DNA of 64,000 nt from Eubacterium sp. (lineage in GTDB: Bacteria; Bacillota; Clostridia; Oscillospirales; Acutalibacteraceae): assembly GCA_017463985.1 (NCBI GenBank), contig JAFUEH010000025.1:1-64000 (forward strand), given 5' to 3'. Of this stretch, positions 26,057 to 44,532 are shown one piece after another. The position numbers and the translations under genes were made by a program. The notes under the pieces are model-generated. The model ran no database searches, was not told the DNA's origin, and saw only the letters and a program-made list of their open reading frames with translations. The number at the start of each line of letters is the position of its first letter. The first letter of the stretch is position 1.

Positions 26057-26061
26057 TATGG

Positions 26062-26253: not shown

Positions 26254-26281
26254 TTGCTTTTACAGTGCGATGTGCTATAAT
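26254..26281 (+). promoter_or_regulatory. Promoter of the alcohol dehydrogenase gene
   Basis: TTGCTT, 16 bases, TATAAT. It lies 30 bases upstream of the ATG at 26311 with GGAG in between. Confidence 0.75.
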
Positions 26282-26310
26282 ATCGTTATCACCAAAAAAG
26301 GAGCAGTATT

Positions 26311-27444: not shown

Positions 27445-27459
27445 GTGAGACGAGCTGGA

Positions 27460-27488
27460 GCAGGGTATTATTGGTACCCTGCTTTTTT
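27460..27488 (+). terminator. Terminator after alcohol dehydrogenase
   Basis: GCAGGGTA-TTATTGG-TACCCTGC with a following run of T (six, then CTG). Confidence 0.9.
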
Positions 27489-27537
27489 CTGTTGTGCGGC
27501 TGACTTCGTGCAGTATGCCGTTACCGCACATAAGCTC

Positions 27538-27565
27538 TTGACATTTGCAGTAGAAATGGTATAAT
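27538..27565 (+). promoter_or_regulatory. Consensus promoter for the 27.6-35 kb operon
   Basis: TTGACA, 16 bases, TATAAT: both hexamers are perfect. It precedes the TPR gene and probably drives the genes that follow with short spacings up to the terminator at 34999. Confidence 0.88.
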
Positions 27566-27621
27566 ACTACACAAGAAAGCCTACTAAACATATAGGAATT
27601 ATGTACAACGGAGAGACGGCA

Positions 27622-28377: not shown

Positions 28378-28382
28378 CAGCT

Positions 28383-30274: not shown

Positions 30275-30284
30275 GAGTAAAGGT

Positions 30285-31478
30285 ATGGCAAAACGGGAAT
30301 ACGGTGATGAATTTGGATTTCAGACAAGGGCGGTACACACCGGCAATGATGTGGACGGTGAAACCGGCGCCATTAAGCGGCCGATTACGATGGCAAACAG
30401 CTATGAGTTGCCTTATGATCCCACAGATCTGAATTGGTCAAGCGCTGCTAAAAACCTGTATACGCGTAACGGCGGATCTAATCAGAAGTACCTGCAGGAA
30501 AAGCTGGCTTCTTTGGAAGGCGGCGAGGACTGTGTGGTGCTGGCGAGCGGTGTTGCCGCACTGTCCGGCTTGTTTTTCGCCCTGCTGAAAAGCGGCGATC
30601 ACGTGGTTTTTTCTTCCGTGACCTATATCGCAGTTTACCGTCTGTTGAACGAGCTGTTCAATCATAAATTTAATGTGGAGACGACGATCGTGGACACGAC
30701 GGATTTAGAGGCAGTGAAAAAAGCTATACGCCCCGATACCAAGCTGGTGCATATTGAAACACCGGGCAATCCGACGATCGGTATTACAGATATCAAAGCC
30801 CTGGCAAAGCTGGCGCACGAAAACGGCGCGCTGCTATCGGTCGATAATACGTTCGCTTCGCCGTATAATCAACGGCCGATCGAGCTTGGTGCTGACTTTA
30901 CCGTTGAAAGCCTGACAAAGTATATCAACGGCCACGGTGACGCGATGGGCGGCGCTATCATCGGAAGAAAAGAGGTTCTTGATATTGTCCGTGCGCAGTC
31001 GCAGGTCAACCTTGGCGCTACGATTAGTCCGTTTAATGCTTGGCTGATCATGCGCGGCTGTGTAACGCTGCCGCTACGGATGAAGGCGCATAATGAAAAT
31101 GCCTTGGCGGTGGCAAAGTGGCTGGAGGCACAGCCCTGTGTCAGCTTTGTGGCATATCCGGGATTGGAGAGTAACAAGGGCCACGCCATAGCAAAACAGC
31201 AAATGACCGGCGGCTTTGGCGGTGTGCTGTCCTTTGGACTGAAAGCAGACCACGATAAGCATAACGAGTTTGTCAGCTACCTGCGTGTGATCACCTCCGC
31301 GGTTTCGCTTGGACATGATGAAAGCCTGATCGTGTTCTTGGGCGAAAACGACGAACGGCAATACCTGTATCCCGAAGCGTTTCATAACGGTTTTTTCCGC
31401 TTCAGTGTCGGCATCGAGGACAAAGAGGATATTATTGCCGATCTTGACCAGGCTTTCCGCAAGGCCGGATTGCTGTGA
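30285..31478 (+). CDS. Cys/Met metabolism PLP enzyme (cystathionine gamma-synthase/lyase type)
   Basis: A 397-residue enzyme of the trans-sulfuration family. Signatures: TRNGGSNQKYLQEKLASLEGGEDCVVLASGVAAL, HIETPGNPTIGITDI, SVDNTF, and the PLP-lysine K212 in ESLTKYINGHGD. It may form or split cystathionine, or act as a methionine gamma-lyase; the branch cannot be chosen by eye. It is distinct from the MetY-type enzyme at 38965. GGAG precedes the ATG. Confidence 0.88.
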   Translation: MAKREYGDEFGFQTRAVHTGNDVDGETGAIKRPITMANSYELPYDPTDLNWSSAAKNLYTRNGGSNQKYLQEKLASLEGGEDCVVLASGVAALSGLFFALLKSGDHVVFSSVTYIAVYRLLNELFNHKFNVETTIVDTTDLEAVKKAIRPDTKLVHIETPGNPTIGITDIKALAKLAHENGALLSVDNTFASPYNQRPIELGADFTVESLTKYINGHGDAMGGAIIGRKEVLDIVRAQSQVNLGATISPFNAWLIMRGCVTLPLRMKAHNENALAVAKWLEAQPCVSFVAYPGLESNKGHAIAKQQMTGGFGGVLSFGLKADHDKHNEFVSYLRVITSAVSLGHDESLIVFLGENDERQYLYPEAFHNGFFRFSVGIEDKEDIIADLDQAFRKAGLL

Positions 31479-31512
31479 GTCGATGACGCGGCTGTAAAGA
31501 TGGAGTAGCTAC

Positions 31513-32079
31513 ATGAACAGTAAAGCAAGGTCGGTATCACTGAGCGGCTTGTTTGCGGCGCTCATTGCTGTCGGTGCTTTTATACAGATCAAAATACCGC
31601 TGCCGCTGTACGAAATGCATTTTACGCTGCAATGGTTTTTTGTGGTGTGTGCCGCGCTGCTGCTTGGCACAAGGGGCGCCGTGCTCAGTGTGGGCGTTTA
31701 TCTTTTGATCGGGCTGGCAGGTGTGCCGGTTTTTGCCGCCGGCGGCGGTCCGGCTTATGTATTGCGGCCGGGGTTTGGCTTTTTGTTGGGCTTTTTGTTT
31801 GCGGCGCCCGTCATAAGCGGCATCGCAAAAGCAGTCGATTCGTTCGTCCGTAAGCTGTTGGCCGCAGTGATTGGTATGGTAGTTTATTATACCGTCGGTG
31901 CTGCTTATTTTTATCTGATGAAAAACCTGTATGCCGGTGAAGCGGTAGCGTGGAAGGTCGTGATCGTGGAGTATTGCCTGATCACGGTTTTGCCGGACCT
32001 GCTGCTCTGTCTGCTCGCTGCCTTGCTCAGCAATCGGCTGCAGCCGAGGCTTAACCGTATTCTGAACGGAGGAAAATGA
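31513..32079 (+). CDS. bioY: Biotin transporter substrate-binding protein BioY
   Basis: A 188-residue integral membrane protein with about six membrane segments. The BioY signature is clear: LSGLFAALIAVGAFIQIKIPLP at the N terminus, then GTRGAVLSVGVYLLIGLAGVPVFAAGGGPAYVLRPGFGFLLGF. It is the S component of an ECF transporter and would need the shared energising module encoded elsewhere. Its stop overlaps the start of the siroheme gene that follows. No reason for its presence in a siroheme operon is apparent. Confidence 0.93.
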   Translation: MNSKARSVSLSGLFAALIAVGAFIQIKIPLPLYEMHFTLQWFFVVCAALLLGTRGAVLSVGVYLLIGLAGVPVFAAGGGPAYVLRPGFGFLLGFLFAAPVISGIAKAVDSFVRKLLAAVIGMVVYYTVGAAYFYLMKNLYAGEAVAWKVVIVEYCLITVLPDLLLCLLAALLSNRLQPRLNRILNGGK

Positions 32080-32687
32080 TGGCCTATTTCCCGATGTACA
32101 TCGATATTGCCGATCAAGATTGCCTGATCGTCGGCGGCGGCACGATAGCATACAGAAAAGCATTGGTGCTGCTGGATTTCGGTGCGAAGGTCAGTGTCGT
32201 GGCAACAGTTGTTAGTGACGAACTGAAGCGGTTGCCTGTTGCTGTTTTTGAGCAGGCTTTTGAGCTGGAGCAGCTCAACGGCAAAGAGCTGGTAGTCTGT
32301 GCAACGGATAATTCTGCACTGAACCTTGCAATCAGTGCCCATTGTAAAGAAAACAGAATTCCCGTGAATGTGGTGGATCAGGCGGCAGCGAGCAGCTTTA
32401 TTTTCCCGTCTTACGTTAAGGAAAACGACCTCGTAGCCGCGATTTCGAGTGGGGGAAAGAGTCCGCTGTTAACACAGATATTAAAGAAAAGCGTGAGCGA
32501 ACAGTTAACACCGTTTTTAGGTGAGCTGAATGAGTATCTGGGTTCTTGCCGTGCCACCGTGCAAAGCAATACGGATAGCGAGGCGCAGCGGAAGCATATC
32601 TATCAAAGCCTGTATGAGCTGGCAATCAGCCAAAACAGACTGCCGTCGCAGGACGAGCTGGCGGAGATAATCAGTCATGAACTATAA
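32076..32687 (+). CDS. Precorrin-2 dehydrogenase (siroheme synthase N-terminal type)
   Basis: A 203-residue protein of the CysG N-terminal/Met8 family, which oxidises precorrin-2 with NAD to sirohydrochlorin and may insert iron. The N terminus has FPMYIDIADQDCLIVGGGTIAYRKALVLLDFGAKVSVVA, a Rossmann fold, and the DDxSLN-like ATDNSALN and VNVVDQAAASSFIFPS motifs follow. It is the first of three tetrapyrrole genes, and overlaps hemC by 11 bases. ATG 32079 is an equally good start. Confidence 0.92.
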   Translation: MMAYFPMYIDIADQDCLIVGGGTIAYRKALVLLDFGAKVSVVATVVSDELKRLPVAVFEQAFELEQLNGKELVVCATDNSALNLAISAHCKENRIPVNVVDQAAASSFIFPSYVKENDLVAAISSGGKSPLLTQILKKSVSEQLTPFLGELNEYLGSCRATVQSNTDSEAQRKHIYQSLYELAISQNRLPSQDELAEIISHEL

Positions 32688-33576
32688 AGTGGGAACAAGG
32701 GGTTCTGCATTAGCGCTTGTGCAGACAAAATTGGTGACAGACAGACTGCAGTCAGCCTATCCCGAGGATACGTTTGAAACCGTTATTCTTCAAACGACAG
32801 GCGATAGGAACCAACAGCAGTCGATTGAACTTTTGGGCGGCAAGGGCGTGTTTACCGATACGCTGGAGGCGGCAATTTTAAGCGGCGCTATCGATTTTGC
32901 CGTCCATTCTATGAAGGATATGCCGGCCGCGCTGCCGAAGGGCTTGACCTTTGCAAAAGCGTGGGAGCGCGAGGACGCAAGAGACGTGCTGATCTTACGG
33001 GACCACCGCAGCCTTGTTGCGCTGCCTGAGGGCGCTGTGATCGCCAGCTGCAGCCAACGCCGCACTTTACAGCTGAACGCCTTGCGGCCGGATCTCCGGA
33101 TTACAGCGATCAGAGGTAATATCGATACACGGCTCCGCAGGTTAGCGGAGGGCAGCTGCAACGGCGTACCGATCGACGGTATTATCCTCGCTGCTGCCGG
33201 TATCAAACGGCTCGGCAGAGACGGGGAGATCACGCAATATTTTAGCGTTGATGAGATGATACCGTCGCCGGGACAGGGCACGTTGGCGATTGAACTGAGA
33301 AGCGATAACAAGGCGCTTTTACGCAAGCTGAATGTGTTTTGCGATCCGACAAACGTGCTTTGCACGGCGCTGGAAAGAGACTTTTTGGCGCAAATTGGCG
33401 CCAGCTGTCATGAGCCTGTCGGCGCGTATGCCGTGCAGGAGAACGGTGCAGTCACCTTTCGGGCAATCTACGGGACAGAGGACGGAAGGCTGGCGAGAAT
33501 ACGCTTCACGGAAAGCAAGCCGGAGAATATAGTCCCGAAAGCAGTAAAGGAAATCAAGAGGCAGTTAGATGGGTAA
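32677..33576 (+). CDS. hemC: Hydroxymethylbilane synthase
   Basis: A 299-residue porphobilinogen deaminase, which joins four porphobilinogen units. Signatures: KVGTRGSALALVQTKLV, DFAVHSMKDMP, IRGNIDTRLRRL and the dipyrromethane-cofactor cysteine C244 in GASCHEPVGAY. Length is normal. It overlaps both neighbours, showing tight operon organisation for siroheme supply. Confidence 0.96.
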   Translation: MNYKVGTRGSALALVQTKLVTDRLQSAYPEDTFETVILQTTGDRNQQQSIELLGGKGVFTDTLEAAILSGAIDFAVHSMKDMPAALPKGLTFAKAWEREDARDVLILRDHRSLVALPEGAVIASCSQRRTLQLNALRPDLRITAIRGNIDTRLRRLAEGSCNGVPIDGIILAAAGIKRLGRDGEITQYFSVDEMIPSPGQGTLAIELRSDNKALLRKLNVFCDPTNVLCTALERDFLAQIGASCHEPVGAYAVQENGAVTFRAIYGTEDGRLARIRFTESKPENIVPKAVKEIKRQLDG

Positions 33577-34996
33577 GGTATACTTAGTCGGCGCCGGAAC
33601 AGGCGACGTCGGTCTGATCACGGCGCACGGGAAGGCGCTGGTGGAAAAGGCGGACTGTATCTTATATGACCGGCTGATCGGCAGTGAGCTGCTGCAGCTG
33701 GCCGACGCGCGCTGCGAAAAGATATATGTTGGCAAAGCGCAGCATCATCACACGGTGCCGCAGGCAGAGATACAACGCTTGCTGCTCGAAAAAGCACAGC
33801 AGTATGAAACGGTGGTGCGGCTCAAGGGCGGCGATCCTTATGTGTTTGGCAGAGGGGCGGAGGAAGCGCTGTTTTTGCAGGAGCACGGCGTGGATACGGA
33901 GGTAGTGTCAGGCGTCAGCTCCGTGACGGCGGCGCTGGCTTACGCCGGCATTCCTGCTACAAAACGCGGTGTGGCGACAGGCTTTCGTGCAGTGACAGCG
34001 CACACTAAGGAGGACCTCCTGAACAATATTGACTTTTCTACGATGCTGAACGAAAAGGAAACGCTGGTGTTTTTGATGGGCTTGCGGCACTTAGACGAAA
34101 TTGCCCAGGCCTTAATGAAGGCAGGCAGACGCGAGGAAACGCCGGTCGCTGTCATTGCCAACGCCACCACGCCGCGGCAGAAAAAATGCGTCGGCACACT
34201 GGAAAGCATTGCCGCGCTGGTCAAAGCGCAAGGACTGACTTCACCGGCGATCATTGTTGTCGGGGATGTCGTTCGCTACCACAGCTGTCTTTCGTTCTAT
34301 GAAAAGAAAAGACTGTTCGGCAAAAAATATTTGCTGCCCTATATCGAAGGTATTACCTATTCCTTCCGTCACGGCCTGCAGCCGGTAAAGCAAAGTGAGC
34401 TGCAAACCGGCTTAACCGCGCTGGGTGCAGCGGCGGTGCCGTATCAGGTAGGAAAAATCAACCGAATTTCCTTTGATACCGGCATCATCGAGGCGGGGCA
34501 ATGGCTTGTGTTCACGAGCAAAAACGCCGTATATTCCGTGATGAGTCAGCTGGGAGACCTTCGGAAAATAGCCGGCTGTAGGATCGCTGCCGTCGGCAGG
34601 AAAACCGCCGCGGTGTTAGCCGACTTCGGCATTGCTGCCGACAGGATCGCTGAAAAGGGGACGGTCTCTGATTTGGCAAAGCAGCTGACGGGAGAACAAA
34701 ACCTTATCTGCTTTACGGAAAAAAACAGCCCGGGCATACCGGACGGTCGGCAGGTCGTATGCTATGAAAATGCAGCAGTGGCAACGCCTTTTCCGGAGGA
34801 GGCAAAGGATTGTGACGGCGTTCTTTTTACCTGTGCGTCGAGTGTCAGAAGAACGTGGGTGGCAGCAGACGGCATATTGCCTGAAAAAATATATTCAATC
34901 GGGCCCTCCTGCAGTAAGGAGCTGCAGCAGCACGGCATAACAGCTTTTGCCGAAGCAAAGGAACCGAGCTATGAACAGCTGATTGCGCTATTATAA
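33569..34996 (+). CDS. cobA-hemD: Uroporphyrinogen-III methyltransferase / uroporphyrinogen-III synthase fusion (CobA-HemD)
   Basis: A 475-residue bifunctional protein. Residues 1 to about 240 are the SAM-dependent methyltransferase with GKVYLVGAGTGDVGLITAHGKALVEKADCILYDRL and VRLKGGDPYVFGRGAEEA; residues about 255-475 are a HemD domain (WLVFTSKNAVYSVM, FTCASSVRRTW). It turns hydroxymethylbilane into precorrin-2. This fusion is common in Clostridia. Together with the two upstream genes, all the steps from porphobilinogen to sirohydrochlorin are present, matching the siroheme sulfite reductase at 40188. Confidence 0.94.
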   Translation: MGKVYLVGAGTGDVGLITAHGKALVEKADCILYDRLIGSELLQLADARCEKIYVGKAQHHHTVPQAEIQRLLLEKAQQYETVVRLKGGDPYVFGRGAEEALFLQEHGVDTEVVSGVSSVTAALAYAGIPATKRGVATGFRAVTAHTKEDLLNNIDFSTMLNEKETLVFLMGLRHLDEIAQALMKAGRREETPVAVIANATTPRQKKCVGTLESIAALVKAQGLTSPAIIVVGDVVRYHSCLSFYEKKRLFGKKYLLPYIEGITYSFRHGLQPVKQSELQTGLTALGAAAVPYQVGKINRISFDTGIIEAGQWLVFTSKNAVYSVMSQLGDLRKIAGCRIAAVGRKTAAVLADFGIAADRIAEKGTVSDLAKQLTGEQNLICFTEKNSPGIPDGRQVVCYENAAVATPFPEEAKDCDGVLFTCASSVRRTWVAADGILPEKIYSIGPSCSKELQQHGITAFAEAKEPSYEQLIALL

Positions 34997-34998
34997 GC

Positions 34999-35035
34999 AA
35001 GAGGATGTCTCACATCAGTGAGGCATCCTCTTTTC
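34999..35035 (+). terminator. Bidirectional terminator between the siroheme operon and islB
   Basis: AAGAGGATG-T-CTCAC, loop ATCA, GTGAG-G-CATCCTCTT, followed by TT. It is flanked by A and T tracts suited to both directions and separates two convergent transcripts. Confidence 0.88.
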
Positions 35036-35123
35036 AATGAAGCAGATAATTGGCGCAGATCGCCAAAGCACCGATTAAAATAACGGCAGAAAAGATGGCG
35101 GCAATGATCGTTTCCTTTTTCAT
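35034..35123 (-). CDS. 29-residue single-pass membrane microprotein
   Basis: A tiny frame on the - strand: a basic/charged start MKKETI, then about 20 hydrophobic residues (IAAIFSAVILIGALAICANY) and LLH. Its ATG overlaps the stop codon of the activase gene (ATGA), and it ends at the terminator, so it is the last cistron of the glycyl-radical operon. No homology recognised. It might tether or regulate a transporter or the enzyme; that is speculation. Confidence 0.55.
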   Translation of the reverse strand: MKKETIIAAIFSAVILIGALAICANYLLH

Positions 35124-35998
35124 AGATTCGCCACCTCGATCAGCCCTAAAAACAGCTCGTCGTCCAGCTGAACTTCGCCCATCGGATATTTTCGGTGCAG
35201 TGAGCGGTATTTCGGCTCTCCGAGCCGGTGGTACTTCAAAAGCTCATATTCCGTATTGGCGCCGAGCGACTTGACGAAATCGCGGATCGCAGCGATCGCA
35301 GCAGCATTGTCGTTGAAATCGGGAATGACCGGCGTGCGGACGCGTAAGGTCAAATCGGGGTAGGCCGTGCGAACTGCCTGAATATTTTTTAAAATCAAAG
35401 CATTGGAAACACCGGTGTTTTCGGTGTGCAGTGCGTCGTCCATGCTCTTGATGTCGGTCAAGAAATAATCCAGCTGTCCCGCGATCGCCAAAAGATATTC
35501 GGTATTGCCGAAGGAGGAGGTCTCTATCGCTGTGTGGATACCGCGCTTTTTGGCCTCGGTCAGCAATGCCAGCGTAAATTCCGGCTGCATTAACGGTTCG
35601 CCGCCGCTGACGGTTATGCCGCCACCAGAGCTGGTGTAAAAAGGAATGTCCTTTTCCACCTCGGCCAACACCTTGTCGACCGTCATCTCTTTCCCGATGA
35701 CGTGCAACGCGGCAGAAGGGCAAGCGCGTTTGACCCTTGCAGCCTCCGGAACGGCGGTAACATGCCAAAATATGCTGTCACCGTCCGTTTTGATACCGTA
35801 ATCCTTCAGCATATAGAGGCAACCGCCGCACGCGATGCAATCGCCGGCAGTCCAGCCAAGCTCCGGCTCTGCCTTTTGGCTTTCCGGATTAGCGCACCAG
35901 CGGCAGCGTAACGGACAACCCTTTAAAAACACAGTGGTGCGTATGCCCGGTCCGTCGTGAACAGAGCAGTGCTGAATGTTGAATACAGTGCCCTGCAA
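35120..35998 (-). CDS. islB: Glycyl radical enzyme activase (radical SAM), IslB-like
   Basis: A 292-residue radical SAM protein that installs the glycyl radical on its partner. The N terminus shows GTVFNIQHCSVHDGPGIRTTVFLKGCPLRCRWCANPES, including the CxxxCxxC cluster motif (CPLRCRWC). A small Cys insertion follows (CIACGGC) with another Cys at KRACPSAA, probably one auxiliary cluster. GGEP (SGGEPLMQPEF) binds SAM. The start is TTG 35998 behind AAAGGAGG. It follows the radical enzyme by 33 bases. The name IslB depends on the identity of the partner. Confidence 0.9.
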   Translation of the reverse strand: MQGTVFNIQHCSVHDGPGIRTTVFLKGCPLRCRWCANPESQKAEPELGWTAGDCIACGGCLYMLKDYGIKTDGDSIFWHVTAVPEAARVKRACPSAALHVIGKEMTVDKVLAEVEKDIPFYTSSGGGITVSGGEPLMQPEFTLALLTEAKKRGIHTAIETSSFGNTEYLLAIAGQLDYFLTDIKSMDDALHTENTGVSNALILKNIQAVRTAYPDLTLRVRTPVIPDFNDNAAAIAAIRDFVKSLGANTEYELLKYHRLGEPKYRSLHRKYPMGEVQLDDELFLGLIEVANL

Positions 35999-36031
35999 AG
36001 CTGTCCGCCTCCTTTCTCTTACTGTTGTATG

Positions 36032-38503
36032 TCAGGCAATGTCGTGCTCCGTACGCATAATAATATCGTCCTGACAGTCTGGTGATAATTCTACAAAATA
36101 AGCGCTGTAGCCTGCCACTCTGACGAGCAGACTCTTATAATTTTCCGGATGCTTTCTTGCTTTGAGCAGCGTCTCGCGGTTGATAATATTAAACTGCAGG
36201 TGCCAGAGCATTAAGTCGCGCCAGGTCTTGATGAACTGGATAATGCGTTCTGTTCCGGCCTCGCCCGTCACGCACGACGGCGACAGCTTAATATTCAGCA
36301 GGCGGGAAGCTCTGTTGTCGAAGTCCGTATATTTGGTGTTGAAGTTAGAAATTAAAACAGAGGTCGGCCCGTTAATATCCCTGCCCTGCGAAGCGGAGGA
36401 GCCGTCGGACAGCGGCGTGCCGGCAGTTCTGCCGTTTGGCAGCGCGGCAACGACCTTACCAAAAGGAACGTTGGAGCTTTGCGAAACATAGCGCAGATCC
36501 ATATTGATACCGAGATGCTTAGCGTAACGGTGGGTAAATTCAATACCGATGCGGTCGATCAGCTTGGCAAAATGATCGGCATATTCGTCAGCATTGCCGT
36601 AAGCCGGCGCGTGCATCAGCCGCTGTCTTACCGCCTCAAAACCGTCAAAATTGCTGTCCAGCGCTGCGGTCAGCTCTTCTTTGGTAACGGTTTTATCTTC
36701 AAATACGGTCTTTTGAATGGCTGCCAAGCAGTCAGCAGCCGTGCCGAGCCCGATGAAATCAAAATAGCCGATGTCGATACCGCCGTCAATGTGCTCACTG
36801 TGCAAGTCCTGACAGTTTTTCATGCACAGCTCATGCAGCGCAGAACCCATTGGCGCTGCAAAATGCCGCGCGTGAAGCCGGTTGGCGATATATTGCTGCC
36901 GGAAAGCTGTCTTGAGAATATAATCCAGCTGCTGACGAAAAGCCTGCAGGAATTCGTCGAACGTGTCAAAATCCTCAAAATTACCGGTTTCCAGCGTCAG
37001 CAGCTCGCTGCCGTACTTTTTCATTCTGCCGTTATACAGCGTCAGCTCAACCACGGCGCCGAGATTCAGGTAGGGACATGGCGTCGTAAAGGTGTCTAAA
37101 TTCGGCATACGTACCTCGGTGCAGCCGGAAACCGCATATTCTCTGGCGCTTGCGATGTCGGCGCCTCTTGACAGGAGGATCGGCAGCACCTCCTCGTCGT
37201 TAATGAGCTTCGGGAAGCCGGAGCCGTCCTTTACGGTGATAGCAATCTCTTTCAGGAACGCTTCGGGTGAATTGTGATGAATCCTGGCGGCAAGGTCAGG
37301 ATAATTCAGCGGAAATTCTCGCTTGTTTTCGAGCAGAATATAGCTGATGTCGTTGGTGATGTCGTTGCCTTCCTTATCAACGCCGCCGATCGTGACCGCC
37401 TCCCAGTGTGCATAGCCTTCGCTGAATTTAGCGCCGGCAGGGGAGATATACAGGTCTTGATATTGCGCCATGCCAAGCCACATACATTCAAACAGCTGCT
37501 TGGCGTCCTCTTTTGTAATCTGGCCGTTTTCAAGGTCTCTTTTATAGTAAGGATATAGATATTCATCCATTCTTCCGTTAGAAATAGTGGTGCCGGTTTT
37601 CTGCTCTAAACGGCTGAACATCTGAATAAACCACTGCGCCTGCATCGCTTGCCAGAAGGTTTTGGCAGGGTAACGGGGAACTGTGCGGCAGTTCTCAGCG
37701 ATCTGTAATAATTCTGCTTTCCGCTGCGGATTTTCTTCTTTTTCAGCCAACTGCTCTGCCAACTCTGCGTAACGCTCCGCCCATAGCATGATCGCGTCGC
37801 ATACAATGATGATGCTGTTCAGAAAATCAGCCTTGTCAACGGTGTCCGCCGGATTGTATTCATCGAGCGTCGCCAGTTTTTCCTGCGCTTCCTTCTTAAT
37901 CGCTTCAAAGCCGTCATTAATACCTCTGGCATAATCGTGTACCCATTGCAGCGCACTCCTCATCGAGGAGGTTTCGTTGACAATAAAGCGTGAGGTGAAC
38001 AGATCCTCCGGCTCGTACGTCAGCTTCAGAATGTCGTCGGGCAGTGAACGCGCCAAGTCCTCATAGTAGGTCTTGCCGTGCCAGTACGGCTCGATTTCGT
38101 TTTCAATGACGGCGATATCCTCGTCAGCAATCTCAAACGGACTTTGTTCACGGCTTTTGCTCTGCAGCGCAAATTCTTTTAAAAAGCAGCCGTCCAGCTC
38201 GGGATAAACGAGTCCGTATTTGCCGGCCTTGCCGACTCTGCCAACCAGCAGCTCGTCGTCGTTAATGATAACGTCGATGCTTTCGGCAATGTGGTAAAGC
38301 GCTTTTGCCCAGCGCAAAGAGAGCGCCTGACCCTCGGTTTGACGGAAGCTTTCGGTAAAGTATTTTGCGCGCTGAATATCAACGGCGGATTTCGTTCCCT
38401 GAAAGCTGTCGTAAATGCGCTGTGTGCGCTGTGTTCTGAAAACGACCTTTCCCTTGGTCGCTTCCAGTCGTTTCTCCTGCGGAGATAATGTTAAGGTTGC
38501 CAT
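36032..38503 (-). CDS. islA: Glycyl radical enzyme, probable isethionate sulfite-lyase
   Basis: An 823-residue PFL-like radical enzyme. The catalytic Cys/Glu pair is C461/E463 (SGCTEVR) and the glycyl radical is G798 in RVAGYSAYF. R182 and Q186 (MRSALQ) and R671 (LRYVS) have the same spacing to these as the sulfonate-binding Arg189, Gln193 and Arg678 that I recall for Bilophila IslA (C468, E470, G805): one constant offset of 7. IslA splits isethionate into sulfite and acetaldehyde. Divergent sulfite reductase and siroheme genes support a sulfonate substrate. The start is ATG 38503 behind GGAGG; TTG 38518 overlaps that site. A dihydroxypropanesulfonate lyase or another GRE dehydratase remains possible. 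Confidence 0.78.
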   Translation of the reverse strand: MATLTLSPQEKRLEATKGKVVFRTQRTQRIYDSFQGTKSAVDIQRAKYFTESFRQTEGQALSLRWAKALYHIAESIDVIINDDELLVGRVGKAGKYGLVYPELDGCFLKEFALQSKSREQSPFEIADEDIAVIENEIEPYWHGKTYYEDLARSLPDDILKLTYEPEDLFTSRFIVNETSSMRSALQWVHDYARGINDGFEAIKKEAQEKLATLDEYNPADTVDKADFLNSIIIVCDAIMLWAERYAELAEQLAEKEENPQRKAELLQIAENCRTVPRYPAKTFWQAMQAQWFIQMFSRLEQKTGTTISNGRMDEYLYPYYKRDLENGQITKEDAKQLFECMWLGMAQYQDLYISPAGAKFSEGYAHWEAVTIGGVDKEGNDITNDISYILLENKREFPLNYPDLAARIHHNSPEAFLKEIAITVKDGSGFPKLINDEEVLPILLSRGADIASAREYAVSGCTEVRMPNLDTFTTPCPYLNLGAVVELTLYNGRMKKYGSELLTLETGNFEDFDTFDEFLQAFRQQLDYILKTAFRQQYIANRLHARHFAAPMGSALHELCMKNCQDLHSEHIDGGIDIGYFDFIGLGTAADCLAAIQKTVFEDKTVTKEELTAALDSNFDGFEAVRQRLMHAPAYGNADEYADHFAKLIDRIGIEFTHRYAKHLGINMDLRYVSQSSNVPFGKVVAALPNGRTAGTPLSDGSSASQGRDINGPTSVLISNFNTKYTDFDNRASRLLNIKLSPSCVTGEAGTERIIQFIKTWRDLMLWHLQFNIINRETLLKARKHPENYKSLLVRVAGYSAYFVELSPDCQDDIIMRTEHDIA

Positions 38504-38524
38504 AGCTTTGTCCTCCAAAAGAAA

Positions 38525-38576
38525 TCACCTCCTGAAGATACTGGCGTATCCCTCTTCTTTTGAAGTCAGGAGGTGA
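38525..38576 (-). promoter_or_regulatory. Structured three-way-junction leader of the radical-enzyme mRNA
   Basis: Within the 5' leader, an 11-base perfect outer stem (TCACCTCCTGA / TCAGGAGGTGA) encloses two small perfect hairpins, CTTC-AAAA-GAAG and GATAC-GCCA-GTATC (as read on the - strand). The 3' arm of the outer stem contains an AGGAGGTGA Shine-Dalgarno-like sequence, 22 bases before the enzyme's ATG. The geometry fits a regulatory RNA (riboswitch, protein-binding or RNA-stability element); it matches no class I recognise. Confidence 0.65.
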
Positions 38577-38595
38577 AAAAATTTACTAGATGATA

Positions 38596-38624
38596 TTGAC
38601 ATTTTGCTCGTGTTGTGATATATT
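38596..38624 (+). promoter_or_regulatory. Promoter of the yezD-metY operon
   Basis: TTGACA, 17 bases, TATATT on the + strand. The predicted start site falls at the edge of a perfect dyad (38630-38656). Confidence 0.82.
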
Positions 38625-38629
38625 ACACA

Positions 38630-38656
38630 CAAAACATATAGAAATGGTATGTTTTG
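38630..38656. promoter_or_regulatory. Operator candidate between divergent promoters
   Basis: CAAAACATA-N9-TATGTTTTG is a perfect 9-base dyad located between the two -10 boxes, over the likely start of both transcripts, suited to joint control of the radical-enzyme and sulfite/methionine operons. No regulator gene is adjacent. Confidence 0.65.
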
Positions 38657-38657
38657 A

Positions 38658-38684
38658 TTTGAATGCATGATAGCACGATTCAAA
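38658..38684. promoter_or_regulatory. Second dyad over the - strand promoter
   Basis: TTTGAAT-N13-ATTCAAA is a perfect 7-base dyad that covers the -10 box and spacer of the leftward promoter. It differs from the first dyad in sequence, so it may bind a second regulator. Confidence 0.5.
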
Positions 38685-38695
38685 ACAAATGTCAA
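38667..38695 (-). promoter_or_regulatory. Promoter of the glycyl radical enzyme operon
   Basis: On the - strand: TTGACA (38695-38690), 17 bases, TATCAT (38672-38667). The transcript would start near 38660, giving a leader of about 155 bases that includes the three-way junction. Confidence 0.78.
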
Positions 38696-38722
38696 TAGGA
38701 AATCATAATTTTGGTGAATTTT

Positions 38723-38884
38723 ATGGCGGCTACGAGTGAAAAAAGGGCATTGGCGATCAAGCAGTGCTTAAAGGAAATTGAAGAAATCCTGAATTCTGAA
38801 TTAAAATACGGTTCGATCAATATTATTATTCAGGACGGTATCCCGATTCAGATCGATACAACAGAAAAAAGAAGATTTAACTAA
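38723..38884 (+). CDS. YezD family small protein (DUF2292)
   Basis: A 53-residue protein with the DUF2292 pattern: a helical N terminus (KQCLKEIEEILNSELKYGS) followed by two short strands INIIIQDGIPIQIDTTEKRRF. Members occur beside sulfate and sulfonate assimilation genes in Firmicutes, but their molecular role is not known. It is the first gene of the rightward sulfur operon and is followed by a terminator-like hairpin. Confidence 0.85.
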   Translation: MAATSEKRALAIKQCLKEIEEILNSELKYGSINIIIQDGIPIQIDTTEKRRFN

Positions 38885-38910
38885 GTATACAGTAACTGAC
38901 TGAAAAACAG

Positions 38911-38955
38911 AGGTTACGCTTTTCCGCCCCAGTGCGGATTGGCGTAGCCTTTTTT
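38911..38955 (+). terminator. Terminator/attenuator between yezD and metY
   Basis: AGGTTACGC pairs with GCGTAGCCT (one G-U pair), enclosing a CCGC-GCGG hairpin, and is followed by six T. It ends ten bases before the metY ATG, so it either ends a short yezD transcript or acts as an attenuator for the genes downstream. No T-box or SAM-riboswitch signature was seen. Confidence 0.7.
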
Positions 38956-38964
38956 GGTGAAGGC

Positions 38965-40176
38965 ATGGAACGGGAAACAAAATTATTACATCTGGCGGAG
39001 CAATATCCGGAATTTAAGGGTGCAACGCAGGTGCCGATCTTCCAGACAAGCGCCTTTGCGCACGAAAGCGCCGAGGCCTTGGAGGCGGTATTTGCCGGAA
39101 CAAAGGCAGGCTTTGCCTATACGCGTATCGGCAATCCTACGGTTAACCATTTTGAGCTGTGTATGGCGCAGCTGGAGGGCGGCTTTGCGGCAACCGCCTG
39201 CTCCTCCGGCTCTGCGGCGATTGCCTGTACGCTGCTCAATATACTGAAAACCGGCGATGAGATCATTGTACCGACCGGTCTGTACGGCGGTACGCTCGAT
39301 TTTTTTAAGGACATCGGTCCGCTTGGCATCCGCGCCGTTTTTGCAGAGGATTTTTCCGCGGAGAACGTCCGTAGATATATTACCGACAATACCCGGGCAA
39401 TTTTTGCCGAGGCAATCGGTAATCCAAAGCTCAATGTCGTGGATATTACGGCACTGGCAGCGCTGGCGCATTCCTACGATATTCCGTTGATTATCGACAG
39501 CACGACGGCAACGCCGGTGCTCGTCAATCCGCTGCAGCTAGGCGCTGACTTGGTGATCCATTCATCCTCAAAATATATCAACGGTAACGGCTCCGCCATC
39601 AGCGGCGTGATCGTTGACGGCGCTTCGTATAACTGGAACAACGGAAAATACGAGCACTTTGGCGATTATCTGCGTTTTGGCAAAATGGCGTTCACGGCGC
39701 GGCTGAAGAATTCTGTTTGGCGCGATATCGGCGCCTGTCTTGCACCGATGAACGCGTTCCTGAACAGCAACGGACTGGAAACGCTGTCGCTGCGTATGGA
39801 GCGGATTTGCGCTAATGCCAAAGCGCTTGCGGACTTCCTGACCGTTTACGGAGAGGTGAATTATCCGTATTTCCGTTATCGATCGCTGTGTGAGCAGCAG
39901 TTTTATCAGGGCATGGCCGGCGGTATCCTGACGCTCCGCCTCGGCACAAAGGAACGTGCGTTTCGGGTGATTAATCGGCTGCAATTTGCGCTGAATGCCT
40001 CTAATATCGGTGACAGCAAAACGCTGGTGGTGCATCCGGCTTCTACGATATTTGCCCATTCAACAAAAGAACAGCAGGCGCAGGCCGGTGTGTTTGATGA
40101 TATGATCAGGATTAGTGTCGGCATAGAAAATATTGCCGATCTGCTGGCGGATTTTGAAAATGCATTAAAGGAATAG
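38965..40176 (+). CDS. metY: O-acetylhomoserine sulfhydrylase (MetY type)
   Basis: A 403-residue PLP enzyme that makes homocysteine from O-acetylhomoserine and a sulfide source. Signatures: QYPEFKGATQVPIFQTSAFAHESAEALE, GFAYTRIGNPT, IDSTTATPVLVNP and PLP-lysine K203 in HSSSKYINGNGS. In the Wolinella thiocarboxylate route a MetY homologue takes sulfur from a carrier protein, and the carrier, its protease and E1 lie downstream here. The start is ATG 38965; the longer in-frame GTG-type start at 38932 lies inside the hairpin. Confidence 0.92.
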   Translation: MERETKLLHLAEQYPEFKGATQVPIFQTSAFAHESAEALEAVFAGTKAGFAYTRIGNPTVNHFELCMAQLEGGFAATACSSGSAAIACTLLNILKTGDEIIVPTGLYGGTLDFFKDIGPLGIRAVFAEDFSAENVRRYITDNTRAIFAEAIGNPKLNVVDITALAALAHSYDIPLIIDSTTATPVLVNPLQLGADLVIHSSSKYINGNGSAISGVIVDGASYNWNNGKYEHFGDYLRFGKMAFTARLKNSVWRDIGACLAPMNAFLNSNGLETLSLRMERICANAKALADFLTVYGEVNYPYFRYRSLCEQQFYQGMAGGILTLRLGTKERAFRVINRLQFALNASNIGDSKTLVVHPASTIFAHSTKEQQAQAGVFDDMIRISVGIENIADLLADFENALKE

Positions 40177-40187
40177 GAGATAAAGCG

Positions 40188-41048
40188 ATGGCAGTAGATT
40201 ATGCGGCGTTGAAGGCAGGCGGCTTCATGCGCCAAAAGCAAAAGAATACCTTTTCGCTCCGGCTGCGTGTGGTAGGCGGAACCGTGACGAGCGAGCAGCT
40301 GCGAACGATTCAGGCAGTTGCCGACCGGTACGGAGCAGGGTATGTTCACCTCACCTCCCGCCAGGGCGTGGAGATTCCTTTCATTAAGCTGGAGGATATT
40401 GAAGCGGTAAAGGCCGAGCTGGAGCAGGGCGGCGTGGTGCCCGGTGTGTGCGGACCGCGCGTGCGGACGGTTACCGCCTGTCAGGCCGGAAAATGCTGTC
40501 CCAGCGGCTGTATTGACGCGTACGAGATCGCGTGTGATCTGGACGCCCGGTACTTTGGCCGACAGCTGCCGCATAAGTTCAAGTTCGGTGTTACCGGCTG
40601 TCAGAATAACTGCCTGAAAGCAGAGGAAAACGACTTTGGCGTCAAGGGCGGCTACATCATTAACTGGGACAGCGATAACTGTATTTTTTGCGGCGTGTGC
40701 GAAAAGGCGTGCAGAACAAACGCTATCACTATTGCAGACGGAAAAATAACAGTGGAAGCTTCGCTTTGCAACAACTGCGGAAGGTGCGTAAAAGCCTGTC
40801 CGACAGAAGCATGGCAAGGGAAAAGCGGTTATATCGTTTCCTTTGGCGGCACGTTCGGTAACGCGATCCAAAAGGGAACAGAGCTGTTGCCTATTATAGA
40901 GGATAAGGTAACACTGTTCCGTGTGGCGGACGCAGCGATCGATTTTTTCGATCATAACGCAAAACCCTCCGAGCGCTTTGCCAAAACGCTGGAGCGCGTC
41001 GGCTGGGATGAACTGAAAAAAGAAGTGGAGGCGGCATATTATGGCTGA
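40188..41048 (+). CDS. Siroheme [4Fe-4S] sulfite reductase with ferredoxin domain (AsrC-like)
   Basis: A 286-residue reductase of the small AsrC/DsrAB-related type. Residues 1-60 are a ferrodoxin-like nitrite/sulfite reductase domain (GGTVTSEQLRTIQAVADRYG, HLTSRQGVEIP). Cluster-siroheme ligands are C98, C103/C104, C138 and C142 (TACQAGKCC, GCQNNC). Two CxxCxxCxxxC motifs follow (C165-C175 and C194-C204). It would reduce sulfite to sulfide by six electrons. No AsrA or AsrB subunit is present, so the electron donor is unknown; ferredoxin is likely. A nitrite reductase role is the alternative but does not fit the neighbours. Confidence 0.87.
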   Translation: MAVDYAALKAGGFMRQKQKNTFSLRLRVVGGTVTSEQLRTIQAVADRYGAGYVHLTSRQGVEIPFIKLEDIEAVKAELEQGGVVPGVCGPRVRTVTACQAGKCCPSGCIDAYEIACDLDARYFGRQLPHKFKFGVTGCQNNCLKAEENDFGVKGGYIINWDSDNCIFCGVCEKACRTNAITIADGKITVEASLCNNCGRCVKACPTEAWQGKSGYIVSFGGTFGNAIQKGTELLPIIEDKVTLFRVADAAIDFFDHNAKPSERFAKTLERVGWDELKKEVEAAYYG

Positions 41049-41286
41049 TTATAACATTGATGCAACCGTGGATATTACCGATGTGGTATGTCCTGTTACC
41101 TTCGTGAAGGCGAAGGTAGCGCTGGAGGAGCTGGAGGACGGTGAGATTTTGGCCATTCATCTGAATGACGGCGAACCGGTACAAAATGTCCCGCGTTCCA
41201 TCAAAGAAGAAGGGCATCGAATTTTAAAACTTATCTCTAATGACGACGGAACATACGATTTAATTGTTAAGAAAGTGGGGGAATAA
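41041..41286 (+). CDS. TusA-like sulfurtransferase
   Basis: An 81-residue protein of the TusA/SirA family. The active-site motif CPVTFVKAKVAL has C17, and the C-terminal beta strand pattern (ILAIHLNDGEPVQNVPRSIKEEGHRIL) fits. Members carry persulfide sulfur. Here it overlaps the sulfite reductase gene by eight bases, so it may receive or pass on sulfide sulfur to the carrier system. Confidence 0.87.
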   Translation: MADYNIDATVDITDVVCPVTFVKAKVALEELEDGEILAIHLNDGEPVQNVPRSIKEEGHRILKLISNDDGTYDLIVKKVGE

Positions 41287-41289
41287 AAA

Positions 41290-41496
41290 ATGACGATTAC
41301 CGTAGCAGGAAAGAAGAAGGATTATGAGGAAGGCTTGACCGTAAAGCAGCTGATTGCCGCCGAGGAGGTGGAGAATCCGCTATACGTCACCGTAACGGTG
41401 AATGATGAATTTGTACAGTCGGCCAATTTGGAGACGACGGTGTTAAAGGACGGCGATGAAATTGAGTTTCTGTACTTTATGGGAGGCGGTTGCTGA
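41290..41496 (+). CDS. ThiS/MoaD-like sulfur carrier protein (HcyS-like)
   Basis: A 68-residue ubiquitin-fold protein: TITVAGKKKDYEEGLTVKQLIAAEEV, then VTVNDEFVQSANLETTVLKDGDEIEFLYFMGGGC. In ThiS the chain ends in GG, activated by an E1. Here there is an extra Gly-Cys or Cys after the diglycine, so proteolysis should be required first; a JAMM protease gene lies two genes down. It is encoded between TusA and the E1 enzyme with which its stop overlaps (TGATG). Thiamin synthesis is unlikely because no thiG or thiazole genes are near. Confidence 0.85.
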   Translation: MTITVAGKKKDYEEGLTVKQLIAAEEVENPLYVTVTVNDEFVQSANLETTVLKDGDEIEFLYFMGGGC

Positions 41497-42305
41497 TGGC
41501 TTTTTCCAATGAACAGCTGGAACGCTATTCCCGTCATATTATTTTGAAAGAGGTTGGCGTAAAGGGTCAAAAGAAATTATTGAACGCCAAGGTGCTGATC
41601 ATCGGTGCCGGCGGTCTCGGTGCACCGGCCGCTCTTTATCTTGCGGCGGCAGGCGTAGGCACGATCGGTATTGCTGACGCTGACGAGGTGGATTTATCAA
41701 ATTTGCAGCGGCAGGTGATCCATGCAACTGCTGACATCGGCAAGCCGAAGGTGGAAAGCGCCAAGGAGAGTATGCAGGCAATCAATCCCGACGTGAACGT
41801 GATCACGTATCGCGAGTATATCTATTCAAAAAACATCCTGGATATTATCAAGGACTATGATTTTGTGCTGGACGGGACGGATAATTTTCCGGCAAAATTC
41901 CTGATCAACGACGCTTGCGTCAAGGCCGGTATCCCGTTTTGTCACGCGGGCATTATTCGCTTTAGAGGACAGCTGATGACCTGGGTACCCGGTGCCGCGG
42001 CGCCTTGCTATCGCTGTGTCTTTAAAGAACCGCCCCCGAAGGATGCAGTACCGACCTGTAAGCAGGCTGGCGTGATCGGTGCGATGGCCGGTGTGATCGG
42101 CTGCTTACAGGCGATGGAAGCCGTGAAATATATCACCGGCGCCGGCGAGCTGTTGACGGGCTATCTGCTGACTTACGATGCGCTGACAAACGATTTCAGA
42201 AAAATAAAAATACCCAAGGACAACCATTGCGGAATATGCTCCGACCATCCGACGATCACGGAGCTGAAGGACTACGAGCAGGTAGCCTGTGATTTGAGGA
42301 AATAA
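41496..42305 (+). CDS. E1-like adenylyltransferase (MoeB/ThiF family, HcyF-like)
   Basis: A 269-residue enzyme that adenylates the C terminus of a ubiquitin-like carrier. It has the ATP loop VLIIGAGGLGAPAALYLAAAGVGTIGIADAD, the DLSNLQRQVIH signature, and two zinc-binding Cys pairs (CYRC near residue 170 and CGICS near the C terminus). In this operon the natural substrate is the carrier directly upstream. The start is ATG 41496, overlapping the carrier stop; the earlier TTG at 41490 is not needed. Confidence 0.9.
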   Translation: MAFSNEQLERYSRHIILKEVGVKGQKKLLNAKVLIIGAGGLGAPAALYLAAAGVGTIGIADADEVDLSNLQRQVIHATADIGKPKVESAKESMQAINPDVNVITYREYIYSKNILDIIKDYDFVLDGTDNFPAKFLINDACVKAGIPFCHAGIIRFRGQLMTWVPGAAAPCYRCVFKEPPPKDAVPTCKQAGVIGAMAGVIGCLQAMEAVKYITGAGELLTGYLLTYDALTNDFRKIKIPKDNHCGICSDHPTITELKDYEQVACDLRK

Positions 42306-42306
42306 G

Positions 42307-42717
42307 ATGATTACGTTAAAATTAACCGATTATAAAAAAATGATAGAGCACGCTGAAAAATGGCTGCCGGCGGAGGCTTGCGGCTTGCTGGCCGGCAGGG
42401 TGGACGGCGAAAACAAGACGGTGGAAAAGGTGTATCTTTTGACGAATGTAGACAATTCCCGTGAGCATTTTTCGATGGATCCTCGGGAGCAGCTGCAGGC
42501 GGTGAAGGATATGCGCGCAGAGGGGCTTGTGCCGCTCGGTAATTGGCATTCACATCCCGAAACGCCGTCGCGCCCGAGTGACGAGGACAAGCGTCTTGCT
42601 TACGACAGCAGCGCCAGTTATATGATTTTATCCCTGATGTATCGGGACAGACCGGTACTCAATTCCTTTCACATTGAAGGAACACAAAGCACAAAGGAAG
42701 AGTTAATTATCGTATGA
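42307..42717 (+). CDS. JAMM/Mov34 metalloprotease (Mec+/HcyD-like)
   Basis: A 136-residue JAB1/MPN metalloprotease. The zinc and catalytic residues are visible: E23, H81-x-H83, S91 and D94 (NWHSHPETPSRPSDED). In bacteria these enzymes trim carrier proteins such as CysO-cysteine or HcyS precursors. Here it would remove the residue(s) after the diglycine of the carrier at 41290. It overlaps the next gene (ATGA). Confidence 0.88.
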   Translation: MITLKLTDYKKMIEHAEKWLPAEACGLLAGRVDGENKTVEKVYLLTNVDNSREHFSMDPREQLQAVKDMRAEGLVPLGNWHSHPETPSRPSDEDKRLAYDSSASYMILSLMYRDRPVLNSFHIEGTQSTKEELIIV

Positions 42718-43469
42718 ATCAGTTTTCAAGAACCGAGCTGTTATTTGGCAAAGAGGCCATGGCGCGTCTTGCTGCCAGTCACGTTGCCGTTTTCGGTATT
42801 GGCGGTGTCGGCGGCTATACGGCCGAGGCCCTGGCGCGGTCCGGCGTCGGTACGCTGACCTTAGTGGACGACGACCGTATTTGCCTGACGAATATTAATC
42901 GCCAGATATTTGCTACCCGTAAAACTGTCGGTCAATTCAAAACCGACGCCGCTGAGGAACGCCTGAAGGATATTTCTCCGAACCTTCAGATCATCAAGCG
43001 TAAATGCTTTTATACGCCGGAAAATGCAGACGAATTTGATTTTTCGCAGTATGACTATATCGTGGATGCAGTCGATACTGTCAGCGCCAAGCTTGCCCTT
43101 GCAGAAAACGCACAGGCGGCAGGCGTGCCGATCATTGCCTGTATGGGCGCCGGCAATAAGCTGGATCCAACGCGCTTTGAAGTGGCGGATATCTATGAAA
43201 CCTCTGTCTGTCCGCTGGCGAAGGTCATGCGCTATGAGTGCCGAAAGAGAGGTATCCGGCAGCTGAAATGCGTTTATTCAAAAGAACCGGCGATGAAGCC
43301 GATCGAAAATGACGAAAATTCCTGCAAGCACCACTGTATCTGTCCACCGGATACAAAGCGAACCTGTGAAATCCGTCGCCAAGTGCCGGGCAGTAACGCC
43401 TTTGTGCCGAGCGTGGCAGGGCTGATCATCGCCGGCGAGGTACTGAAGGATCTGGCGTTCGGCGGCTAG
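42714..43469 (+). CDS. tRNA threonylcarbamoyladenosine dehydratase (TcdA) or related ThiF-fold enzyme
   Basis: A 251-residue ThiF-superfamily protein. VAVFGIGGVGGYTAEALARSGVGTLTLVDDDRICLTNINRQIFA is the ATP-binding E1 core, and VPGSNAFVPSVAGLIIAGEV near the C terminus matches TcdA/CsdL, which cyclises t6A in tRNA. A Cys-rich stretch (SCKHHCICPPDTKRTC) is present at about residue 205-220. It overlaps the protease gene, so a role in the sulfur system instead of tRNA modification cannot be excluded. Confidence 0.82.
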   Translation: MNQFSRTELLFGKEAMARLAASHVAVFGIGGVGGYTAEALARSGVGTLTLVDDDRICLTNINRQIFATRKTVGQFKTDAAEERLKDISPNLQIIKRKCFYTPENADEFDFSQYDYIVDAVDTVSAKLALAENAQAAGVPIIACMGAGNKLDPTRFEVADIYETSVCPLAKVMRYECRKRGIRQLKCVYSKEPAMKPIENDENSCKHHCICPPDTKRTCEIRRQVPGSNAFVPSVAGLIIAGEVLKDLAFGG

Positions 43470-43483
43470 TATGATAATGAAAC

Positions 43484-43519
43484 AAAAAGCGCTGTGACTG
43501 TAAAGCCACAGCGCTTTTT
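43484..43519. terminator. Bidirectional terminator
   Basis: AAAAAGCGCTGTG and CACAGCGCTTTTT form a 13-base stem around a 10-base loop, serving the rightward sulfur operon and the leftward lipoprotein gene. Confidence 0.92.
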
Positions 43520-43524
43520 ACGCA

Positions 43525-44370: not shown

Positions 44371-44452
44371 ATAGCACCCTCCATATTGTCTAATAGTTTT
44401 ATCATATCACATTTCAAACCCTTCGGCAATATCGAAAATGACGTTAGTAAAG

Positions 44453-44481
44453 TTGACACTGAGCAGAAAAAGTATTACGAT
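44453..44481 (+). promoter_or_regulatory. Promoter of the zinc-ribbon microprotein
   Basis: TTGACA, 17 bases, TACGAT, about 50 bases upstream of the ATG at 44533. Confidence 0.6.
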
Positions 44482-44532
44482 AAATTGAGATCGTTTTCAA
44501 TCTAAAATATTGATATAAGCGGGAGATAAAGG

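Follow-up and report, generated by a model that had tools for sequence, protein, structure and literature searches.

Why should a predicted radical sulfonate lyase be encoded beside the genes for homocysteine synthesis? The question is raised by the window analysed here, the first 64 kb (positions 1 to 64,000) of contig JAFUEH010000025.1, which is 168 kb long and belongs to assembly GCA_017463985.1 (Eubacterium sp., Acutalibacteraceae; a genome of 2.58 Mb, 97% complete). The window contains an island of sulfur genes with prophage-type genes on its left and right. A glycyl radical enzyme (GRE) and its activase are encoded on the minus strand of this island, and a plus-strand run that opens with the gene of the small protein YezD begins ca. 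200 bp from the GRE (Table 1). We believe, with a probability of roughly 0.7, that the locus is an anaerobic sulfur-scavenging unit, which would take the sulfur of a sulfonate, most likely 2,3-dihydroxypropanesulfonate (DHPS), through sulfite, sulfide and a thiocarboxylate to homocysteine. The assimilatory role of the pairing between GRE and homocysteine genes is the well supported part of this proposal.

The preliminary description of this DNA had named a GRE, its activase, YezD, MetY, a sulfite reductase (SiR), TusA, a ThiS-like carrier, an E1 and a JAMM protease, and coordinates and models agree with all of these assignments. MetY, SiR, carrier, E1 and JAMM protease stand in a single run, and they are the parts of the protein-thiocarboxylate homocysteine unit which that description had recognised in the right half of the locus. 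From MetY through the TcdA-like E1 (which probably serves tRNA modification rather than this pathway) the genes are tightly packed, with gaps or overlaps of no more than 11 bp by coordinates; the MetY open reading frame (ORF) opens at GTG 38932. The SiR shows the C-x5-C and C-x3-C patterns known from siroheme enzymes, together with two ferredoxin motifs. The carrier ends in GGGC, and 15/15 homologous rows end in GGG followed by 1-7 residues (L007 and L025 being the same DNA), as the trimming step by the JAMM protease would require. The siroheme genes, also mentioned in that description, stop at 34996, which leaves ca. 120 bp to the end of the activase gene and 3.7 kb to YezD, and siroheme genes are also found within the runs of four other loci (L016, L017, L019 and L023). 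Besides, the genome has a MetA-type gene and two CysK-type genes, and because of the latter a second exit for sulfide besides homocysteine is possible.

What kind of GRE is this? It has the glycyl radical motif RVAGYSAYF (Gly803) and a GCTE loop with Cys466 and Glu468, and both Pfam domains score over their cut-offs. ATG at 38503 is the likely start, TTG at 38518 the alternative. The best model for the activase is that of HpsH-type activases (369 bits; the cut-off of 430 is not reached), and the cut-off of the general GRE-activase model is passed. In an alignment with the isethionate sulfite-lyase IslA, residues R187, Q191, R676, C466, E468 and G803 of the window correspond to R189, Q193, R678, C468, E470 and G805, and IslA variants at each of these six positions are described as having no detectable activity (PMC8473560). 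These are the sulfite-lyase residues that the preliminary description had expected, with one departure in the pocket, where IslA Phe682 is replaced by Gln680. Overall, the window GRE is 56.0% identical to HpsG, and with the two solved IslA chains it shares 57.1 and 54.3% identity.

This departure turned out to be the mark of a whole clade. A tree (quick method, midpoint root) was built from the window, three PDB chains and the 77 of our 80 loci with an ORF of >700 residues, 81 rows in all; in it the window GRE falls in a separate clade of 15 rows, away from both IslA chains, with a Shimodaira-Hasegawa-like approximate likelihood ratio test (SH-aLRT) support of 100. The sulfonate triad (Arg189, Gln193 and Arg678 in IslA numbering, used from here on) and the radical residues are present in 15/15 rows of this clade. 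At position 682, all 15 have Gln, L024 and L029 (which branch just outside the clade) have Val, HpsG has Ile, and the remaining 63/63 have Phe; we call these 63 rows IslA-type by exclusion, the clade, HpsG, L024 and L029 having been set aside. In IslA itself, a catalytic efficiency of 1200 per s per M is reported to fall to 23 with F682A and to 2.9 with F682Y (PMC8473560). The HpsG reference (6lon) has Ala191, Leu192 and Ala312 besides Ile682, and the window shares Ala191 and Leu192 with it. Judged by these residues, we take the GRE to be a sulfonate lyase, yet no IslA. The NCBIfam models were dropped as a test of substrate, as the HpsG model NF048011 (cut-off 1000 bits) scores four IslA-type rows (1479-1569 bits) above the window (1363 bits). 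This model, named for a dehydratase, was well exceeded by IslA-type and Gln682-type enzymes alike (8/8 tested), and public protein names may therefore often be wrong.

Is the proximity of GRE and homocysteine genes a matter of chance? In a sample of 150 genomes of the family (GRE at E <= 1e-150, SiR at E <= 1e-60), the GRE was found in four and the SiR in nine. All four GRE genomes were among the nine with SiR, with both genes on the same contig at distances of 1.7, 1.7, 10.2 and 9.5 kb, so that the pairing is far above chance (hypergeometric 6e-6, or 1e-4 without the window's genome, kinship not being corrected for). The neighbourhood search that the preliminary description had called for has thus found the same pairing, within about 10 kb, in every GRE genome of the family sample. 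The GREs of the window and G043 are of the Gln682 type, those of G008 and G048 of the Phe682 type. These four genomes, like G149, G084 and G121, have the complete set for homocysteine (MetY, reductase, carrier, E1 and JAMM protease); G047 has TusA alone beside the reductase, and G003 the reductase only. A draw across the whole class (GRE at E <= 1e-200) gave GREs in 2/393 genomes and the reductase in 20/393, both GRE genomes being among the 20. These two were the window's own genome and G501, which has GRE and reductase on different contigs, and the test was dropped because GRE genomes were too few.

We also examined the 80 named loci, taken out of 315 related stretches; many of their contigs are short and the flanks end early (we take L025 and G043 to share a contig, and likewise L084 and G008, and L014 and G501). 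At least two genes of the homocysteine core were found in the flanks of 5/15 clade loci (the window apart) vs. 3/65 other GRE loci. Another clade locus, L021, has a partial MetY match, and the fragmented L042 was placed in the clade by identity, not by motif. In L017, L019 and L023, the genes for GRE, activase, MetY, reductase, carriers, E1, JAMM protease, BioY and siroheme synthesis are all on a single strand; the divergent layout seen in the window is thus one arrangement among others.

A further indication comes from relatives that carry another module at the same place. Upstream of MetY, the same-genus genome G149 carries a YezD stretch followed by AprA, an ORF of ferredoxin type (AprB, judging by its place), CysD and CysN; its reductase is 87% identical to that of the window, and the search of the family genomes found no GRE in it. 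We scanned 11 genomes, ten of them SiR- or GRE-positive, with PF01507 (CysD/CysH-type). Matches of CysD grade (>190 bits) were confined to G149, G084, G121 and G047, all of them SiR-positive and without GRE. All 14 control genomes gave a PF01507 match and the window's genome gave none; GRE genomes G048 and G501 had none either, and G043 and G008, also with GRE, had only weaker matches (<=83.7 bits, not classified). In G003 both the GRE and a strong match are lacking, and G021 (same genus) has no SiR, no GRE and a weak match only. The mutual exclusion of GRE and CysD-grade matches has a p of 0.02 on ten genomes. We propose that the GRE module would supply sulfite where relatives hold an AprA-CysDN sulfate module next to the same homocysteine genes.

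Are both operons under one control? Two facing promoter-like sites span the gap between GRE and YezD, with the palindrome AAACATA-N9-TATGTTT between their -10 boxes. In the window it has one match with up to two mismatches vs. 0.18 expected. Over the window and the loci (without L001-L009 and L109-L114), a relaxed form has 22 sites in 1.65 Mb, where ten block shuffles gave 5.9 on average (range 2-15); the count is not fully independent because the pattern was set after some sites were known, some of the loci overlap, and L043 and L049 are near-identical. Half of these sites (11/22, spread over 10 loci) are followed by a GRE start at a distance of no more than 200 bp. Further ones precede MetY in L017 and L102 (where the site adjoins an Rrf2-family gene), cysK of the window's genome (L094) and an ABC transporter of sulfate-type look in L103, the remaining ones being at unrelated or unnamed genes. 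Both operons may thus respond to one operator between their promoters; that the regulator is an Rrf2/CymR-like protein is our guess. No riboswitch was found at the operons of the window, L025 and L017 at the Rfam gathering threshold (the only matches, all of them from the window, were a tRNA, a hammerhead and RT-18), and a permissive scan of 25800-44500 gave only the tRNA and a sub-threshold rnk_leader match. The GRE leader also contains an 11-base inverted repeat (38525-38576; arms 38525-38535 and 38566-38576), one arm of which holds the Shine-Dalgarno-like AGGAGGTGA on the GRE strand; the hairpin was not visible by eye in 14 other folded clade leaders, and we have left it unused.

Which sulfonate would be used? 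Genes for SsuA-family sulfonate-binding proteins, both tested examples of which exceed the model cut-off, occur in the flanks of 7/15 clade loci, which suggests sulfonate import. For the 15 clade loci, the fetched flanks gave no match to a class-III aminotransferase or to an iron-type alcohol dehydrogenase (Fe-ADH); among the 65 other GRE loci they are matched in 18 and 19, respectively. By position, we take these two to be taurine-to-isethionate genes; the aminotransferase has no NCBIfam match beyond a subfamily without a name, and the Fe-ADHs do not reach the cut-off for sulfoacetaldehyde reductase.

An informative neighbourhood is that of Treponema zioleckii kT3 (L018, 514-14625), where a run of genes encodes a TctA-type transporter, a transaldolase-family aldolase, a HIBADH-family reductase, DUF4867, an SftI-like isomerase, a glycosidase, the clade GRE and its activase, with MetY 0.6 kb further on. 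The glycosidase is over the cut-off of PRK10426 (the YihQ model), and SftI, aldolase and reductase are below their equivalog cut-offs (the reductase with 149.5 bits vs. 348 for sulfolactaldehyde reductase). DUF4867 has been called SftX (PMC13219744). From its gene families, we read this layout as that of sulfoquinovose breakdown to DHPS, followed by cleavage of the C-S bond. DHPS is our preferred substrate, at about even odds, because the clade gene comes directly after a sulfoquinovose-type cluster here; another C3 sulfonate or isethionate would come next. The run would also be a possible route from the plant sulfolipid sugar to homocysteine. A separate observation concerns Butyrivibrio SIG348 (L104, on the contig of L014), in which two tandem GREs (one at 12971-15361, and its neighbour) adjoin a clade GRE and a sulfonate-type ABC transporter. 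They are ca. 32% identical to the clade GRE, have GCVS in the Cys loop instead of GC-x-E, possess their own activase and passed no NCBIfam equivalog; they may act on yet another sulfonate.

Put together, the proposed pathway would run as follows. A sulfonate, most likely DHPS, would enter the cell, and the GRE, once its activase has installed the glycyl radical, would cleave the C-S bond to release sulfite and a carbonyl product (hydroxyacetone from DHPS, acetaldehyde from isethionate). The siroheme enzyme would then reduce sulfite to sulfide. The JAMM protease would cut HcyS back to its Gly-Gly end, the E1 would adenylate it, and sulfide would convert it to the thiocarboxylate, from which MetY would transfer the sulfur onto O-acetylhomoserine to give homocysteine. 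We infer all the catalytic steps from family knowledge, and the same applies to the substrate, the regulator and the role of TusA.

How does this scavenging unit fare when the rest of the evidence is weighed? That GRE and homocysteine unit belong together, as the preliminary description had suggested, is now backed by linkage in several lineages, single-strand runs, the shared palindrome and the alternation with the sulfate module, all of which, like the parts themselves, can be read in the sequences. On the other side of the balance are several results. Neither MetY nor homocysteine-core genes were seen in the fetched flanks of 9/15 clade loci (several of them on short contigs), and outside the family two of the 15 (L015 and P. 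ruminis L016) have the sulfate module beside the GRE. The sulfoquinovose link is found in 1/15 clade loci. Leu192, shared with HpsG, is also present in 16/63 IslA-type rows, and at position 312 the window has Thr as IslA does, 14/15 clade rows having Ala as in HpsG. We recognised no sulfonate transporter in the window. Its genome has two NMT1 matches, which found no support as candidate importers, one being without a family match and the other nearest to amino-acid binding proteins. Genome-wide, the palindrome has 15 sites (up to two mismatches) vs. 27 for a control pattern, i.e., no enrichment. The protein of this genome that comes closest to the L102 Rrf2 protein shares 28% identity with it and reaches neither the IscR nor the CymR cut-off.

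Some alternatives retain the assimilation and change the substrate. Isethionate, favoured by the preliminary description, would make the GRE an IslA with a tolerated pocket change; the identity to the solved chains, the common triad and Thr312 would fit, as would the Fe-ADH of the window at 26311, whose relatives flank other GRE loci, and HpsG is reported to cleave isethionate as well (PMC13219744). However, Gln682 throughout the clade against Phe in all 63 IslA-type rows, the weakening of IslA by changes at this residue, the clade loci devoid of aminotransferase and Fe-ADH matches (the window itself having its Fe-ADH at 7.7 kb), an equal closeness to HpsG and the sulfoquinovose-type neighbourhood in one locus make this rather unlikely, and we do not take isethionate as the first choice. 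Alternatively, the clade might cleave a sulfonate that is neither that of IslA nor that of HpsG, for instance 3-sulfolactate, with Gln682 binding a polar third carbon. The restriction of Gln to the clade, with Val just outside it, Ile in HpsG and Phe in IslA, is what one would expect in that case, but the reductase-like gene of T. zioleckii would make DHPS (even if its score is far from the cut-off), and we regard this option as a doubtful one that still deserves attention.

Other alternatives question the assimilation or the chemistry. The GRE could serve energy metabolism, with sulfite as electron sink and the homocysteine operon as a mere neighbour, since the best-studied IslA and HpsG are described as feeding a dissimilatory sulfite reductase. 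Here, though, the linked reductase is a single siroheme protein of 286 aa within a methionine-type operon, the linkage recurs in differing arrangements, the module that takes the place of the GRE is AprA-CysDN beside MetY, and the palindrome also occurs near cysK and beside MetY; we find this explanation improbable. That the GRE acts on a non-sulfonate, as a dehydratase or another eliminase, is hardly credible: its best NCBIfam model is indeed named sulfopropanediol dehydratase, but the same model accepts IslA-type rows with higher scores, the HpfG dehydratase model NF048009 gives 465 bits for a cut-off of 1000, the sulfonate triad is conserved, and sulfonate transporter genes stand alongside nearly half of the clade loci (7/15).

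Comparison with known systems helps to place the scavenging unit. With IslA/IslB of Bilophila and Desulfovibrio it shares the family, the radical residues, the triad and an adjacent activase, and it differs by the Gln at 682, the missing aminotransferase and Fe-ADH at 15 loci and the sulfur-assimilation neighbours. With HpsG/HpsH of Bilophila it shares the triad, Ala191, Leu192, a residue other than Phe at 682 and the best NCBIfam model; the identity is 56%, and HpsG has Ile682 and is described from bacteria that respire sulfite. Clostridium butyricum reportedly uses taurine via isethionate and IslA, an example of a fermenting anaerobe that obtains its sulfur from sulfite released by a GRE, and we know of no coupling of its taurine cluster to the carrier route of homocysteine synthesis. 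Judging by its title, a paper on the assimilation of taurine sulfur by a gut anaerobe is already published (Xing 2019, Biochem J; cited in PMC12997750). The nitrogenase-like isethionate reductase IsrBHDK of Rhodobacter capsulatus also makes a sulfonate an anaerobic sulfur source (PMC11423573), by an enzyme unrelated to the GRE and with an onward route that is taken there to be ordinary sulfur assimilation. Protein-thiocarboxylate methionine synthesis in Wolinella succinogenes is cited as existing in the literature. The window has the same set of parts, and in addition the GRE stands alongside as a source of sulfite. In Wolinella these parts are said to be MetY, a sulfite reductase, a carrier with a residue behind Gly-Gly, an E1 and a JAMM protease; a thioredoxin-like gene (by inspection) is found in the runs of G149, L017 and L019 and is absent from that of the window.

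A search of the open-licence literature, mostly on one half of the pathway, found no paper that connects homocysteine synthesis with a sulfonate lyase of the glycyl radical type. The Gln682 enzyme clade, its coupling to thiocarboxylate homocysteine synthesis, the alternation of sulfate and sulfonate modules and the shared palindrome would be new. It is tempting to go further and see in the Gln682 clade radical sulfite-lyases of a third kind, which would be dedicated to assimilation and have a substrate of their own. The compact run from GRE to siroheme genes would then bring sulfonate sulfur to homocysteine on carriers, with little free sulfide, as a cassette that can be swapped with the sulfate module under a shared operator. 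This is a tentative extension, possible but one on which we would not insist.

Around these genes, the PatB-type lyase and the cystathionine gamma-synthase/lyase gene perhaps belong to a wider sulfur island. A BioY-family membrane protein (31513-32079) is encoded beside the siroheme genes, as it is in the homocysteine runs of L017, L019 and L023. The Fe-ADH (26311-27444; relatives 42-51% identical flank 19/65 other GRE loci) was tried as a sulfoacetaldehyde reductase and not used, as it scores 193 bits for a cut-off of 700 and two Fe-ADHs at IslA-type loci are equally low. The prophage-type region on the left (616-25832) has terminase, portal, sheath, tape measure, baseplate and amidase genes and an RT-18 RNA match (22055-22132; score 42.7 vs. 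gathering 41.3), and a tRNA-Pro is found at 26059-26136. The one on the right (47912-63719) has an integrase, a single-strand binding protein, a DNA methyltransferase and a type II hammerhead ribozyme (51125-51191) above the Rfam gathering score.

Table 1. Features of the sulfur locus, with positions in the window.
Feature	Coordinates	Strand	Remarks
PatB-type C-S lyase	28383..29540	+	over model cut-off
Cystathionine gamma-synthase/lyase family protein	30285..31478	+	
Siroheme synthesis: CysG-N-like, HemC, CobA-HemD fusion	32076..34996	+	predicted cofactor supply for sulfite reductase
Radical-SAM activase of GRE	35120..35998	-	HpsH-type and general GRE-activase models
Predicted glycyl radical C-S lyase (GRE; sulfite-lyase group, Gln682 clade)	36032..38518	-	Pfam PFL-like and Gly_radical, residues, tree
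Promoter-like site towards YezD-MetY	38596..38624	+	11 of 12, TG before second hexamer
Palindrome AAACATA-N9-TATGTTT	38632..38654	.	candidate operator for both transcripts
Promoter-like site towards GRE	38667..38695	-	11 of 12, TG before second hexamer
YezD/DUF2292 small protein	38723..38884	+	53 aa
MetY-type O-acetylhomoserine sulfhydrylase (homocysteine synthase)	38965..40176	+	best NCBIfam model TIGR01326, below cut-off
Small siroheme/4Fe-4S sulfite reductase (SiR)	40188..41048	+	286 aa, two ferredoxin motifs
TusA-family sulfur carrier	41041..41286	+	
HcyS-like ThiS-family carrier	41290..41496	+	extra C-terminal residue (GGG-C)
HcyF-like E1 (MoeB/ThiF family)	41490..42305	+	
HcyD-like JAMM protease	42307..42717	+	HSHP...SDED
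TcdA-like E1	42714..43469	+	

In the accounts that we consulted, radical sulfonate cleavage is mostly described as a source of electron acceptor and of gut hydrogen sulfide. Here, fermenting bacteria of gut and rumen appear to have the same chemistry tied to the synthesis of methionine and, if this is true, sulfonate sulfur would be fixed in protein and not released as sulfide. A clear prediction follows for an enzyme clade so far uncharacterised, which has cultured relatives in which the reading could be examined (P. ruminis, T. zioleckii and Anaerovibrio), and it suggests a sulfur source for strains without a recognisable gene of sulfate assimilation.

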